A stretch of DNA of 23,568 bases from a virus, in IMG/VR virus record IMGVR_UViG_3300020162_000965, positions 1-23,568 of that record. One strand, given 5' to 3'. A model generated the notes under the pieces. The model had not been told where the DNA came from. It saw only the letters and a list, made by a program, of their open reading frames with translations, and did no database searches. The first letter of the stretch is position 1. Each line of letters starts with the position of its first letter. A program made the translations under genes and the position numbers. Shown here in pieces: positions 1-21,629 of this stretch.

Positions 1-971
1 AGAATGGTAAATTCTTTGTTGCAACTAAGTCCGCTTTCAACAAGAATCCTAAGATTAATCACACAGAATCAGATATTGACAAGAACCACGGACACGCACC
101 TGGTCTTGCAAAAACACTTAAACACGCATTAAAACACTTACCAAAAGTAACACCAAAACATGGTGTTTACCAAGGTGACTTGATGCATCATGCAGATACT
201 AAACAATTACATGAAGATTTTATAATTGAAGCTAAAGATAGTAAAGTATCTTTTACACCAAACACAATCACTTATACACCGAAAAGCAAAGAAGATGCGG
301 ATAAGGTTAAAAAGTCAAAAGTTGGTATTGTAGTTCATCACAAGTATAGTGATGACATGAAAAGTGCTTCGCCTCATGTTGACCTTCACAATTTCAAACA
401 ACATCCTGATGTTCACCTCCATGGTGCGGAACATGATACTAGCAAAGTTAAACATTCCTCAGAGAATGAACACACTTTCCAAAAACACATGGCTGCAGCC
501 AAAGATATCCATGACACACATGGACATAAAATGTATGATGCAGTTCACCACAAACATAGTGGGGAAACTGGTCACCTATCTACATACATTAACAAAACAG
601 TTAGACACGATGAAGTTCCTTCTGTCAAAGGTTTCAAAGAACACTTGCATAATGAACATGAAAAAATGGCATCTAAAGTGAAAACTGAAAAGGCAAAAGC
701 TGAAAAGACAGGTGAAGGTAAGTCACAAATTGCTCACGTAGAAAAACACAAAGCACATTATGGCCATTTGTTTAATATGCACCATCACCTACATCAAGCC
801 AAAAATGCATTGGTAAATTCTTTGGAAACACATGAAGGACGTTATCATCACCACATTGAAGGTAAGAAGTCTAAGCCAGAAGGTTTTGTTGTTCACCACG
901 CCAACGAACCAACCAAATTAGTGAATCGTGCAGAATTCGCTAAACAAAATTTATTAAAAGTACGTAAATGA
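1..971 (+). CDS. 5'-truncated His-rich protein (DUF6267-like), possible ligase/nucleotidyltransferase fold
   Basis: The reading frame is open from base 3, so the gene begins upstream of the window; the TTG-ATG at 180-185 is internal, because the codons before it (HGVYQGDLMHH) read straight through. I recognise the N-terminal part visible here (NGKFFVATKSAFN, NHGHAPGL, GVYQGDLM) as a family common in T4-like aquatic phages, which I believe is DUF6267. The protein is very rich in His and Lys. Several pieces resemble polynucleotide-ligase/nucleotidyltransferase motifs: GVYQGDLM near codon 56-63 as motif III, VGIVVH as motif IIIa, PEGFVVHH near the C-terminus as motif IV, and the following TKLVNR as motif V. 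The catalytic KxDG motif would lie upstream and cannot be seen. A His-rich helical stretch sits between the putative motifs IIIa and IV. The stop overlaps the next start as ATGA (968-971), which implies translational coupling. Family membership is likely; the fold assignment is inference. Confidence 0.75.
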   Translation, partial: NGKFFVATKSAFNKNPKINHTESDIDKNHGHAPGLAKTLKHALKHLPKVTPKHGVYQGDLMHHADTKQLHEDFIIEAKDSKVSFTPNTITYTPKSKEDADKVKKSKVGIVVHHKYSDDMKSASPHVDLHNFKQHPDVHLHGAEHDTSKVKHSSENEHTFQKHMAAAKDIHDTHGHKMYDAVHHKHSGETGHLSTYINKTVRHDEVPSVKGFKEHLHNEHEKMASKVKTEKAKAEKTGEGKSQIAHVEKHKAHYGHLFNMHHHLHQAKNALVNSLETHEGRYHHHIEGKKSKPEGFVVHHANEPTKLVNRAEFAKQNLLKVRK

Positions 972-2770
972 AGTCATTTTTAGATATACTACAAGAAGAT
1001 AAATCTGGTGAAACCCACCATGTTTTTACTTTTGGTAGAATGAATCCGCCTACTACTGGCCACTTGAAGTTAATTGACAAAGTTAAAGAAGTAGCTAAGA
1101 AGCATAATGCAACACATACAGTGGTAACCTCTCATTCTCAGGATGCAAAAAAGAATCCACTTTCTGCTTCTCAAAAATTAAAACACCTAAAACGTTATTC
1201 TCCAGGAACTCACTTTGAGGCTTCTTCAAAAGAACATCCTACGTTCCTACATCATGCCGCAGAACTACACAAAAGGGGTGTAACACACCTTCATATGGTG
1301 GTCGGTTCCGACCGTGTGCATGAAATGAAAACAAAATTACACCATTATAATGGTTCACATGAAGGTTCATTATATCATTTCAAAAAGATTCATGTACATT
1401 CAGCTGGTGAACGTGATCCGGATGCAGAAGGCACAACTGGTATGTCCGGTACCAAGATGCGTGAACACGCCAAGAATAAAGACGTTGCAAAATTCAAACA
1501 AGGTATTCCACATCATGTATCGGATACTCATGCAAAAGAATTGATGCATGACACAAGAAAAGGAATGGGATTACACGAATCTTACAATCGTGGCATTTTC
1601 AAGGCCATTTTTGTAACAGGTGGACCAGGTTCCGGTAAAGATGTTATCATCCGTGAAGCAATTGCAGAATCAAAAGCAGTAGAGTTAAATTCAGTACAAG
1701 CTTTTGATTATTTGATGGACAAACAGAAGTTGTCAGAAAAAACTAATGACTTTCGTAGGGAAGCAATTAGAAATCGTGGTCCGTTAATTATTAATGGGCC
1801 TGCGGATGACCATTCTCGCATCATTACAATCAAGGAAGAACTGGAAGAACTTGGTTATGAAACAATTATGGTATTTGTTAATACTACAGACCGAGCTAGT
1901 CAGGAAAGAAATCTTAGACTTACAAAGATGATTGCCGAATCAATCAGACGAGAAAAGTGGGAACTCGCCCAAACCTGTAAAGAATCTTACGTTCAAAATT
2001 TTGATAATTTCATATATTTTGACAATAGTTCCGAAATTGAATCTATTGAGGAAGATATTACTGAGACCTATAAAAAAATAAATACATTTATAGAAAGTAA
2101 AAATTATGGCGAAATTTCTTATTCGTGGTTGGAAAATCATGGTAGGTTGAATGCCAATGTTCCATTTAATTATTTTAAGGAAAATTATCATGCTAAAGAA
2201 AGTATTAGACTGGTTGAAAATAAAACCAAAAACGAACCAAAACTCCGTAGTGGAGGAGGCCCAAAAGCCGATGGACCAGACGACATTACACCAGACAACA
2301 GAGCAGGTGACCCCAGTTCCGGTGATATCAAGTGGAACGGAAACAAAAGAAGAGGTAGTTACATCTTCAAAACCTACAGCGAAGAAGCCAGTGGCCCAAA
2401 AATCAAAATCTACCCAGAGCCAAAAGAAAGCAACTTCTCCAAAGACAAAGACAAAGTAAATAAAAAGAAATACTCCGATGTTCCCACAGTAAGTCAGAGA
2501 CTTAGAAATGTGACGACCATCGGACCAGAATTCGATACACGCCAACAGGGAACAGTATACCCTATGTCTGGTCTAGGCGATGTAACATATAGAGAACAAG
2601 TGGAATTTAAGAACTTTAGAAATAGAGTTAAAGAAGCAATTGACGATCCAGGTGCAAATGACATGGGTGTTGGTGGAACTTTAGGTGGTGCAACCAATAA
2701 AGAACCAATGCAGTCATACAAAGACCAGGATAGAAATGTAAAGATTGTAACTAAAAAGAAAAAGAAATGA
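968..2770 (+). CDS. Nucleotidyltransferase-P-loop kinase fusion with N-terminal capsid-targeting-like sequence
   Basis: This 600-residue protein has four parts. Residues 1-10 (MKSFLDILQE) match the T4 capsid-targeting sequence and end in an L-x-E head-protease site. Residues about 18-180 are a cytidylyltransferase/NMN-adenylyltransferase-like domain, with GRMNPPTTGH (23-32, the HxGH element as TTGH), VVGSDR (111-116) and MSGTKMR (159-165, the ISSTxxR-type element). Residues about 208-375 are a P-loop kinase-like domain with Walker A GGPGSGKD (218-225), LIINGPADD (273-281) and an Arg-rich lid-like stretch near 314-329. The C-terminal 220 residues are low-complexity and charged, ending in a module (MGVGGTLGGATNKEPM) that I know from other virion proteins of aquatic T4-like phages. 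An NMNAT-like domain followed by a kinase recalls bacterial NadR, but the substrate cannot be read from sequence. The gene overlaps both neighbours by ATGA. The domains are well supported; the reaction is not. Confidence 0.85.
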   Translation: MKSFLDILQEDKSGETHHVFTFGRMNPPTTGHLKLIDKVKEVAKKHNATHTVVTSHSQDAKKNPLSASQKLKHLKRYSPGTHFEASSKEHPTFLHHAAELHKRGVTHLHMVVGSDRVHEMKTKLHHYNGSHEGSLYHFKKIHVHSAGERDPDAEGTTGMSGTKMREHAKNKDVAKFKQGIPHHVSDTHAKELMHDTRKGMGLHESYNRGIFKAIFVTGGPGSGKDVIIREAIAESKAVELNSVQAFDYLMDKQKLSEKTNDFRREAIRNRGPLIINGPADDHSRIITIKEELEELGYETIMVFVNTTDRASQERNLRLTKMIAESIRREKWELAQTCKESYVQNFDNFIYFDNSSEIESIEEDITETYKKINTFIESKNYGEISYSWLENHGRLNANVPFNYFKENYHAKESIRLVENKTKNEPKLRSGGGPKADGPDDITPDNRAGDPSSGDIKWNGNKRRGSYIFKTYSEEASGPKIKIYPEPKESNFSKDKDKVNKKKYSDVPTVSQRLRNVTTIGPEFDTRQQGTVYPMSGLGDVTYREQVEFKNFRNRVKEAIDDPGANDMGVGGTLGGATNKEPMQSYKDQDRNVKIVTKKKKK

Positions 2771-14546: not shown

Positions 14547-14873
14547 ATGGACATAGAAATCACAGAATCAGCTAATGCAAAAATATCCGACATTTTAGCT
14601 GAAGAAAACAATCCAGATACAAAACTAAGAGTATTTGTACAGGGTGGTGGTTGTTCAGGATTTCAATATGGATTTACATTAGATGAAATAAAAAATGAAG
14701 ATGACTGGATTATAGAAAAACCAGGATTGACTGTTCTCATTGACTCTATGAGTATGCAATATCTACAAGGCGCATCAATAGATTATAAAGAAACACTTAT
14801 GAGTAGTGAATTTGTTATTAAAAATCCAAATGCACAATCCACTTGTGGATGTGGAAGCAGTTTTACAGTATAA
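14547..14873 (+). CDS. A-type iron-sulphur carrier (IscA/ErpA/HesB-like)
   Basis: This 108-residue protein begins three bases after nrdA. Its three conserved Cys are in place: GGGCSGFQY (Cys36) and STCGCGSSF (Cys100, Cys102). FTLDE and [12 protein letters not shown] complete the family pattern. A-type carriers bind iron or Fe-S clusters and hand them to target enzymes. Sitting between nrdA and thioredoxin/nrdB, it may support iron loading of the diiron NrdB or of a host Fe-S protein; this is inference. The ribosome site is GAAGGA at 14536-14541. Full length, no truncation. Confidence 0.93.
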
Positions 14874-19146: not shown

Positions 19147-19288
19147 GACAATGGTGCCAGCAGACTTGGTTTGTGACAGCCTTGAGCCTTGGCAACGATT
19201 GGAAAATGTCATAAAAATGTGGGCTGCACAAACAGGATACGAAAATGACCAAGATTGGTACAAGAAAATGAAAGAATACTATGAATAA
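19130..19288 (+). CDS. Small acidic protein (52 residues), unknown
   Basis: Direct translation from ATG 19130 gives 52 residues beginning MSQNTETMVPADLVCDSLEP and ending MKEYYE. AGGAG (19119-19123) lies at good spacing, better than for most neighbours, which makes the gene convincing despite its size. It is Trp/Tyr-rich at the C-terminus (WAAQTGYENDQDWYKKMKEY). Unrecognised. It overlaps the previous gene by 17 bases and the following AbrB-like gene by 8. Confidence 0.7.
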   Translation: MSQNTETMVPADLVCDSLEPWQRLENVIKMWAAQTGYENDQDWYKKMKEYYE

Positions 19289-19463
19289 AGTATACAATTA
19301 CGAAGAATTGTTTCAGAATATTCCTGGAGACCCAGATAATTTCCTTTTCACCATTCCTCCAGAGATGCTGGAGGAAACTGGATGGAAAGAAGGTGATACA
19401 CTAAAAATATCCGCAGAAAATGGATCAATAGTGTTGTCAAAAAAAGACACCACCGTAACATAA
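19281..19463 (+). CDS. AbrB/SpoVT-like small DNA-binding protein
   Basis: This 60-residue protein has the swapped-hairpin AbrB pattern: FLFTIPPEMLEETGWKEGDT followed by LKISAENGSIVLSKK. Members bind DNA as dimers, either as transcription regulators or as antitoxins; no toxin gene is adjacent. A family member with the same N-terminus (KVYNYEELFQNIPGDPDN) occurs in related phages next to the CobT-like gene. Its stop lies two bases before the promoter of that gene, which contains an inverted repeat, so it could regulate it; this is untested. Confidence 0.82.
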   Translation: MNKVYNYEELFQNIPGDPDNFLFTIPPEMLEETGWKEGDTLKISAENGSIVLSKKDTTVT

Positions 19464-19520: not shown

Positions 19521-21629
19521 ATGGAATTAATTGACTCAAAATCACTCTTAGCCAAACTAATGGCCACAGAAAACCTGACCATTGAACACCGTAATGTTCG
19601 CACAGCATCCTTTGATGTTAAGAACCGTGTTTTGGTTATCCCTACACTAGATAAAAATTTATCGGCCGCATTATATGACCTTTTTACAGGTCACGAAGTT
19701 GGCCATGCTCTGTACACTCCAATGGACGGAATGATTGAAGCAAAAATACAAAAAGTTAATAAAGATATTGCCAATGTGGTTGAAGATTGCCGTATTGAAC
19801 GTAAAATCAAAAACAAATATCCAGGTTTAAGATTGCCTTTTCTTAAAGCCTATCGGGAATTGATTGAAAAAGATTTCTTTGCCACCAAAGGCAAAAACCT
19901 GAATCTTATGAATTTCTTGGACCGCCTTAACCTTTATACAAAAGGTGGCGTATCTTTGGGTATTAAATTTGATGATGTTGAACGTGGTCTGTTGAATGAT
20001 GTTGAAGCAACAGAAACCTATGATGACGTAATTGAAGTTTCCAAACGTATTGCAAAATATATGCAAGAACAGTTAGAGGAACAAAAAGCCAAAGACAAAG
20101 AAAAGTCACTTGAAGAAAATGAAGATGATGACGATGACTTTGACTATCAAAGTGAATTAGAGGAAATTGATGTTGGTGATAAATCACAATCAAAACCTAA
20201 TTCTTCTATTGAAGATGGTGATGGTGAAGATTCTGATAGTGACGAAGATACTGATTTTGGTGATTCGGATATTGGTGATGAAAACCTGAAAGATTCACAA
20301 AGCGATCCAGAAATTCGTTCATTTACCGATGAAGCCTTCCGTGAGAATGAAAGTAGATTGTTTGAATTTGGTGAGGATTATACTTATGCCAATATTCCAA
20401 AAATGGAAATTGACAAAGTAATCTATGATTACAAGCCTTTGTGGAAACGTTACAAAGAAGAAGATGATTATCTTTCTGTAAAACCAGAAATATATTTACA
20501 GATTCGCCGTGAATCAAATAAAGTGGTTTCTTATCTTGTCAAAGAATTTGAAATGCGTAAGAATGCCGACCAACTGAAACGAGCCAGCACTGCAAAAACT
20601 GGTGACTTGGATATGAAGAAACTTTTCTCATATGGTTTCAGTGAAGATATTTTTAAGAAAGTTACGGTTGTTCCTGGTGGTAAATCACATGGACTTGTAT
20701 TATTCTTGGATTGGTCTGGTTCAATGACTGAACACATTTCCAACACTATGAAACAATTGCTTAATCTTACACTATTTTGTAAGAAAGTAAATATTCCTTT
20801 TGAAGTTTATACTTTTGTAGAGGACATTGATTCACAATTCAATTACTACGTCAAACCTAAAAAAGGCGATTTAGCTGCAAAGAAATTTGGCCTCTGTAAT
20901 ATTCTTTCAAGTAGAATGTCAGCTGCTGAATTTACTTATGCTGGTTCTGCTCTTGTGTCAATGTGTGGTTGTGGTCCGACTGGTAGAAAAACCAGAACAC
21001 CATACTGGATGACCATGTCAGGTACTCCATTGAATGAAGCAGTTATTGCTGCCATGGAAATTATTCCACACTTTCAAAAGAAATACAAGTTACAAATTGT
21101 GAACACTGTATTTCTGACAGATGGTGAGGGAGCTCCACTTTATGAAGTCTATACAGATGATGAAGGTCACATTGAGTATCATTCACGCTACAATAGAAAA
21201 AATCTTGTGATTCGTGACCCAGTTACCAAAGAACAAGAGATACTAAGACCAAATTCAATTTCATTTAATCAAACAAGTGCTTTGATTCGTTTGTTGAAGA
21301 AACGTACAAATTCAAACATCATTGGTTTCTATGTATTGAACGTCAGAGAACTTAATGGTTCTGCTGGCAATATGTTCTTTCCTGATTACAATGAAAGATA
21401 TAAAGTCAAAGAACAATTTAGAAAAGATAAATTCTTTGTGGTTCAAAACACTGGATTCGATGAGTATTATTTGCTCCGGTCAAACGGCCTAGATACTGAT
21501 GAAGATGCAACATTTGAGGTTAAAGAAAATGCCACTAAACGTGGTATTGTCTCCGCATTTTCTAAGTATGCTGGTAACCGAATTAACAATCGTGTTATTC
21601 TGAACCGATTTATCAATTTAATTACATAG
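19521..21629 (+). CDS. cobT: CobT-like VWA protein with zinc-peptidase-like motif
   Basis: This 702-residue protein has three regions. The N-terminal region carries FTGHEVGHALYTP (HExxH-type motif, His58-Glu59, His62) and VVEDCRIERK (85-95), giving a plausible third ligand. An acidic, Asp/Glu/Ser-rich linker covers about 190-270. The C-terminal VWA domain has a full MIDAS: DWSGS (397-401), Thr502 in SGTPLNE and Asp534 in FLTDGEG. The annotation derives from the CobT subunit of aerobic cobaltochelatase, which works with the AAA+ ATPase CobS. T4-like aquatic phages often carry a CobS/CobT pair of unknown role, and no other cobalamin gene is visible here. CobS is not within this window. A chaperone- or protease-like remodelling role fits the motifs as well as metal chelation. 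Confidence 0.88.
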   Translation: MELIDSKSLLAKLMATENLTIEHRNVRTASFDVKNRVLVIPTLDKNLSAALYDLFTGHEVGHALYTPMDGMIEAKIQKVNKDIANVVEDCRIERKIKNKYPGLRLPFLKAYRELIEKDFFATKGKNLNLMNFLDRLNLYTKGGVSLGIKFDDVERGLLNDVEATETYDDVIEVSKRIAKYMQEQLEEQKAKDKEKSLEENEDDDDDFDYQSELEEIDVGDKSQSKPNSSIEDGDGEDSDSDEDTDFGDSDIGDENLKDSQSDPEIRSFTDEAFRENESRLFEFGEDYTYANIPKMEIDKVIYDYKPLWKRYKEEDDYLSVKPEIYLQIRRESNKVVSYLVKEFEMRKNADQLKRASTAKTGDLDMKKLFSYGFSEDIFKKVTVVPGGKSHGLVLFLDWSGSMTEHISNTMKQLLNLTLFCKKVNIPFEVYTFVEDIDSQFNYYVKPKKGDLAAKKFGLCNILSSRMSAAEFTYAGSALVSMCGCGPTGRKTRTPYWMTMSGTPLNEAVIAAMEIIPHFQKKYKLQIVNTVFLTDGEGAPLYEVYTDDEGHIEYHSRYNRKNLVIRDPVTKEQEILRPNSISFNQTSALIRLLKKRTNSNIIGFYVLNVRELNGSAGNMFFPDYNERYKVKEQFRKDKFFVVQNTGFDEYYLLRSNGLDTDEDATFEVKENATKRGIVSAFSKYAGNRINNRVILNRFINLIT

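Follow-up and report, generated by a model that had tools for sequence, protein, structure and literature searches.

Several described systems pair a AAA+ ATPase with a protein carrying a VWA domain. In aerobic cobaltochelatase the pair is CobS and CobT, whereas in NorQ/NorD, as in CbbQ/CbbO, a MoxR-type AAA+ protein has a VWA-MIDAS partner with an N-domain and a flexible linker. In two papers on NorQD, the AAA+ pore holds a finger of the VWA domain, the proposed role of the MIDAS is to grip an acidic site of the target, and the target is opened by a rotation against the N-domain that is powered by ATP (PMC13036017, PMC9976466). The target of NorD is nitric oxide reductase, and no peptidase motif is described for NorD in the accessible portion of the 2026 NorQD paper, which has no mention of either HExxH or metalloprotease.

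Pairs of this kind have also been noticed in phages, under conflicting labels. Among the core genes of cyanophages is cobS, which has been listed as cobalamin-related (PMC3037559), and Liu et al. 2021 (PMC8651126) propose the phage pair as a B12 booster and call the second gene a CobT "mistakenly annotated as a peptidase". In group 2.2 jumbo phages a MoxR ATPase lies beside a vWA protein with an N-terminal metallopeptidase domain, for which virion assembly and processing are proposed (PMC7824862), so that a similar architecture is already in print. Since none of the three jumbo phages ME3, GAP32 and RaK2 matched our profiles for the family studied here or for CobS, we treat that pair as a precedent for the architecture and not as a shown homologue. 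The closest described relatives are the cyanophage "peptidase" proteins of phrog_459 (T4-like GC 146), which are full-length homologues of the protein examined below and have both of its metal sites and a CobS-type partner; the clade of our sequence differs from them in that CobS lies 15-18 kb downstream rather than adjacent.

A peptidase-type site and a VWA metal site in one protein

The window, i.e. the whole stretch of 23,568 bases that was analysed, is a linear virus record, probably a fragment of a virus genome, with T4-like gene content (primase, NrdA, NrdB, thymidylate synthase, a MazG-type hydrolase and T4 RNase H). Its zincin-VWA gene (Table 1) encodes a protein that matches the phrog_459 "peptidase" profile over its full length (E 1.7e-194, residues 5-701 on 5-735 of 736), as well as 463 phage records (query coverage of at least 80% in 441, all <60% identity), 450 of which are named Synechococcus, Cyanophage or Prochlorococcus. 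Carriers of the gene number hundreds of T4-like phages, marine and freshwater. A Pfam search gave no match for the window protein, and a sequence search of solved structures, with either the protein or the 111-member profile described below, returned low-complexity or chance matches only.

Some neighbouring genes deserve mention in their own right. Directly upstream of the zincin-VWA gene (19281-19463, +) lies a small MazE/AbrB-type antitoxin-like protein (PF04014, E 6.4e-8), with no toxin evident beside it. The ribonucleotide reductase cluster includes an A-type Fe-S biosynthesis domain protein (14547-14873, +; PF01521, E 2.3e-21), with NrdA on one side and a thioredoxin-like ORF on the other. 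Positions 3-2770 (+) encode a DUF6267 protein and, after it, a nucleotidyltransferase that may include a AAA part (PF01467, weak AAA_19; phrog_2071 "ATPase"); phrog_455 is common to both.

Table 1. Positions of the zincin-VWA gene and its sequence features in the window
Feature	Position	Strand	Evidence
Zincin-VWA protein, 702 aa, phrog_459 ("peptidase" or "CobT" of cyanophages)	19521..21629	+	phage-record matches
N-terminal zincin-like domain, residues 1-203	19521..20129	+	AlphaFold model, zincin matches
HEVGH (58-62), with H58 and H62 as putative zinc ligands and E59 as putative catalytic Glu	19692..19706	+	identical in 111/111
NVVEDCRIE, residues 85-93, E88 candidate third zinc ligand	19773..19799	+	N85, E88, D89, R91, E93 invariant 111/111
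Acidic linker, residues 190-264	20088..20312	+	33 D/E of 75; 206-256 disordered in model
VWA domain from about residue 390, C-terminal helix 673-701	20688..21626	+	MDN1-MIDAS Z 18.2, NorD VWA Z 16.2
MIDAS motif 1, DWSGS (397-401)	20709..20723	+	D397, S399, S401 invariant
MIDAS T502	21024..21026	+	T 152, S 5 of 157 aligned rows
MIDAS D534	21120..21122	+	invariant

An earlier note, made from the DNA letters alone, had described this ORF as joining HEVGH, with a Glu further downstream, to a complete VWA metal site through a 75-residue acidic linker, and each of these elements is present as described. The downstream Glu is E88, the linker has only 6 K/R, and the MIDAS set of the window protein is complete (DWSGS, T502 and D534). 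The peptidase reading in that note hinged on conservation of the active-site residues among homologues, and this is what was observed. We aligned the window protein with 110 homologues from IMG/VR and genome contigs, all 111 sequences being distinct and the homologues 31-79% identical to the window protein. Identity across all rows is seen at 43 of the 702 positions, among them H58, E59, H62, N85, E88, D89, R91, E93, D397, S399, S401 and D534. In a larger alignment H58 and E59 were kept in 145 of 145 aligned rows, although this count, like the 157-row count given for T502, takes in overlapping loci. Among the eight histidines of the window protein only H58, H62 and H390 are invariant in the 111 rows, while the others vary (H23 is identical in 74, H405 in 30, H517 in 4, H550 in 5 and H554 in 2). 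Obviously, a pattern as short as HExxH can arise by chance, and it did so in 155 of 20000 shuffles of the window protein; thus its presence would be merely suggestive, and it is the identity in 111 of 111 sequences that leads us to count it as real. The catalytic Glu of zincins acts as a general base and is not a metal ligand, so the invariance of E59 argues for chemistry beyond metal binding.

The predicted fold agrees with the motif. The AlphaFold model has a pLDDT of 84.1 for the whole protein and of 93.9 for residues 1-203 (pTM 0.89), and its N-domain consists of three strands followed by the HEVGH helix (49-65) and the E88 helix (81-99). This succession of an HExxH helix and a Glu helix is shared with ArdC, with the minigluzincins abylysin and selecase, and with the M48 peptidases ZMPSTE24 and BepA. 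When the N-domain was compared with the PDB by Foldseek, the first 16 matches were ArdC, abylysin, selecase, jannalysin and IrrE/PprI (E from 0.047 upward; ArdC and IrrE are also zincins). The first 22 VIA matches were zinc peptidases or zincin relatives only, with ZMPSTE24 and BepA among the best (Z 6.3 to 4.5; best match 6sna, Z 6.3 over 125 residues at 3.9 A), and no matched entry was titled as a VWA fusion. As to the peptidase fold that the earlier note had suggested looking for, the leading matches are all zincins and the domain is confidently modelled, but Z values up to 6.3 are modest and no Foldseek E reached 0.001. Since such a match alone is no proof, it is its agreement with the invariant motif that carries the case.

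The full-length model had NorD in the NorQD complex as its top Foldseek match (E 4.2e-4), and in the VIA comparison MDN1/Rea1 and NorD entries took all of the first seven places (Z 18.2 to 14.9), ahead of the best adhesion-type VWA at 13.6. Midasin and NorD, which the modelled VWA domain resembles most, are each a component of a AAA+ motor.

The CobS-type AAA+ partner

The earlier note had also remarked that no CobS is found within 2 kb of the gene, which is literally true but uninformative, because the window holds only 1.9 kb on the 3' side. The partner that it implied to be missing is in fact a regular companion of the gene. Outside the window clade, CobS lies directly downstream within 2.1 kb in 35 of 38 loci, and in the three exceptions the sequence stops 1898, 183 and 0 bases past the zincin-VWA gene. 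These 38 loci (L060-L098 minus L083) were fetched through the zincin-VWA protein, and L099-L173, having been fetched with CobS, were excluded from the count. In S-PM2 the zincin-VWA gene (p122) sits between gp46 and CobS (p123), as it does in S-CAM1 and, apart from one small ORF in between, in S-SSM7. A CobS-type AAA+ gene also lies next to or near the zincin-VWA gene in Pelagibacter phage Mosig and Stenotrophomonas phage DLP6, and in two genome contigs the pair is adjacent in other arrangements, divergent in one (L189) and in reversed order in the other (L190). In group totals over the phage collection the two genes are equally frequent under each name (Synechococcus 365, Cyanophage 61, Prochlorococcus 24, Pelagibacter 3). 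All five CobS proteins compared matched AAA_5 and, weakly, CbbQ_C, i.e. they are of the NorQ/CbbQ type. A linked MoxR-type AAA+ gene is thus found in loci of the family, though outside the window itself.

Within the window clade the spacing differs. None of 52 loci of this clade has a AAA+ partner in the locus. The only two contigs of the clade that extend for more than 16 kb on the 3' side, however, each contain a same-strand CobS with intact Walker motifs, 18.3 kb downstream in G012 and 14.7 kb in G025. Both share with the window the order RNase H then zincin-VWA, and G025 also has NrdB upstream. Two further contigs, G023 and G022, with 15.3 kb and 14.5 kb of 3' room, have no CobS there, which would fit an 18-kb spacing but does not count as support for it. 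Given a clade spacing of 14.7-18.3 kb, the absence of CobS from a window that stops 1.9 kb 3' of the gene is expected. A window phage devoid of any CobS was considered and judged unlikely, since G012 and G025 carry it downstream; from their sequences, the window phage likely has its own CobS beyond the window end.

The wide spacing is also what might speak for a different arrangement, in which the protein is a stand-alone virion-maturation peptidase, its VWA domain merely targeting it and the link to the AAA+ protein being loose. The window-clade pair is indeed unlinked, as just described, but CobS is kept even there and is adjacent almost everywhere else, and the VWA domain resembles those of AAA+ partners rather than adhesion VWAs. 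We consider this explanation very improbable.

The association does not hold in the reverse direction for all phages. Cases from Staphylococcus and Microbacterium phages indicate that not every phage CobS-like AAA+ protein has a zincin-VWA partner, no HExxH-VWA neighbour having been found in the flanking stretches read there (by a motif scan for one Staphylococcus downstream neighbour and by annotation for the rest). In G012 (L179:3476-7576) CobS is preceded by a AAA+ ATPase (phrog_2376), rIIB and rIIA, and in Microbacterium phage Cece (L205:3689-8172) the CobS-like AAA+ gene also lies beside rIIA/rIIB. A zincin-VWA gene and a CobS gene occur on a 188-kb contig of Nonlabens xiamenensis (L191), perhaps from a co-sequenced or resident T4-like phage.

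Relation to CobT and the cobalamin reading

Direct comparison with cellular CobT gave little. The window protein matched neither PF11775 (CobT-type VWA) nor PF06213 (CobT N-domain), the latter being matched by none of 13 family members either, the NCBIfam CobT model was reached by 2 of the 13 with a best E of 0.38, and an hhalign comparison of the family profile with 10 cellular CobT proteins was insignificant (probability 1.8, E 0.027). The connection runs instead through phage proteins of intermediate sequence. Protein L018 of coliphage CMS-2020a matches both CobT Pfam families (E 7.6e-28 and 2.1e-81) and carries LDHEVAH...NALEDVFIE, where it matches the window-family profile (33.8 bits in all, 28.2 for the HExxH stretch). 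An intact site is likewise present in Roseophage CRP-810 and Rhizobium phage RHph_Y2_17_1, whereas Pseudomonas phage Nican01 and Stenotrophomonas phage ANB28 have lost both His and kept the Glu (SExxK and RExxT, respectively). The ICP2 (HECYH) and Gordonia (HEIGH) proteins carry an HExxH as well, but they stand outside alignment A6 and a homologous position is not implied. A direct alignment of GHEVGHAL over RGHADSIAL has been superseded, since the phage intermediates place LDHEVAHIL over ADSIALKL. Membership in DUF2201_N (PF13203), an HExxH-VWA family, was also considered and rejected, as only one of the 13 members matches it (E 0.94); the sole DUF2201_N match in 120 Pseudomonadota genomes, which lies below the cut-off, is, by sequence reading, an M48-like TPR protein.

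In the same 120 genomes we found 32 CobT loci, of which 31 have no HExxH at the site: 30 have none anywhere and one has an unrelated HExxH at residue 196, although the Glu equivalent to E88 is kept in CobT. The remaining locus (L233:5088-7283, in a bacterial genome) encodes a divergent zincin-VWA CobT-like protein with HECGH at the site, beside a primase of phage/plasmid type as we read its neighbours, and this gene is probably in a mobile element. By sequence, then, the intermediate phage proteins connect the window family with cellular CobT, remotely. Because the peptidase-type site is kept and a remote kinship with CobT exists through phage intermediates, the labels "peptidase" and "CobT" are each half right. 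One may tentatively go further and arrange these proteins as a single series, from intact (T4-like phages, coliphage, roseophage, rhizophage) through decayed (SExxK, RExxT) to absent (chromosomal CobT), in which the phage "CobS/CobT" pairs would be AAA+-driven metalloproteases and cellular CobT a descendant or sister with a dead zincin domain; we regard this as possible, though short of an even chance. Within the literature searched we found no printed statement describing cellular CobT as an inactivated zincin or phage CobT proteins as keepers of the site.

The kinship is one of the few points in favour of the cobalamin explanation, according to which the phage pair would join host CobN in inserting cobalt and so raise the B12 supply. 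Besides the published proposal (PMC8651126), a Prochlorococcus genome has two PF02514 proteins, a family that includes CobN. Yet the phage protein matches neither CobT Pfam family and barely the NCBIfam model, it keeps a site that cellular CobT in Pseudomonadota lacks in 31 of 32 loci, no CobN-family gene was found in the four complete phage genomes examined, and the window phage has class I NrdA/NrdB. Class I ribonucleotide reductase needs no B12. We also know of no de novo corrin synthesis through CobN in E. coli, Vibrio cholerae or Pelagibacter, hosts of phages with related pairs. The class I NrdA/NrdB genes, the lack of CobN in the four phages and the retained peptidase site together disfavour a role in B12 supply, which we hold to be unlikely, and for this zincin-VWA family the "cobalamin" label is probably a misnomer.

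A proposed motor-driven protease and a possible chaperone

Since a strictly conserved peptidase-type site is combined with a domain of the motor-partner type, the pair is probably an ATP-driven machine for protein remodelling or protein cutting rather than a part of B12 synthesis. What the computations show is how the protein is built, that its two metal-site motifs are invariant and that the gene is coupled in the genome to a CobS-type AAA+ gene. Of the specific explanations, the one we favour, with a little better than even confidence, is that the protein is the VWA co-factor of a phage MoxR-type AAA+ ("CobS"), fused by an acidic flexible linker to an intact zincin-type metallopeptidase domain that would cut a target protein. 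By analogy with NorQD, CbbQO and midasin, the AAA+ hexamer would act on the VWA domain in the way that NorQ drives NorD, an acidic residue of the target would be gripped by the MIDAS metal, and ATP hydrolysis would pull or twist the gripped target open. The zincin domain, tethered near the ring by the linker, could then cleave the opened protein, as the conservation of its site and the invariance of E59 suggest. The target could come from the phage, as a structural or replication protein, or from the host. A AAA+-VWA machine for remodelling or proteolysis was the alternative offered in the earlier note, and the invariant sites, the zincin-like N-domain and the resemblance of the VWA domain to those of AAA+ partners speak for it, whereas the supposed lack of CobS that accompanied the proposal found no support.

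Three points weigh against cutting. The zincin matches are weak (all Z <8, no Foldseek E <=0.001); a non-proteolytic role can suffice in relatives, given that Nican01 and ANB28 have lost both His; and cellular CobT uses the corresponding domain without the site. Alternatively, the AAA+/VWA pair might open a metalloprotein of the phage or the host without proteolysis, HExxH binding or handing over metal or only recognising the target. For such a metal-insertion or maturation chaperone there is a precedent in NorQD, where cNOR is opened for iron (PMC13036017, PMC9976466). The VWA fold match to NorD and the persistence of the gene pair in the relatives that lost both His are also consistent with it, and possible clients are at hand in the window, namely the class I ribonucleotide reductase NrdA/NrdB and the A-type Fe-S carrier. 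However, E59 is hard to account for as a residue that only binds metal, and the N-domain of NorD is said to mediate target specificity and not to be a metal site. We consider a chaperone rather doubtful.

The proposed motor-driven protease bears on the two labels now in print, "peptidase" on the one hand and "CobT mistakenly annotated as a peptidase" on the other. It matters for the reading of cyanophage cobS too, since the zincin-VWA partner of that gene bears an invariant peptidase-type site. If proteolysis is indeed what the pair performs, very abundant marine viruses would possess an unusual ATP-driven protease, in which a MoxR protein is the motor, the VWA domain the grip and the zincin the cutter.
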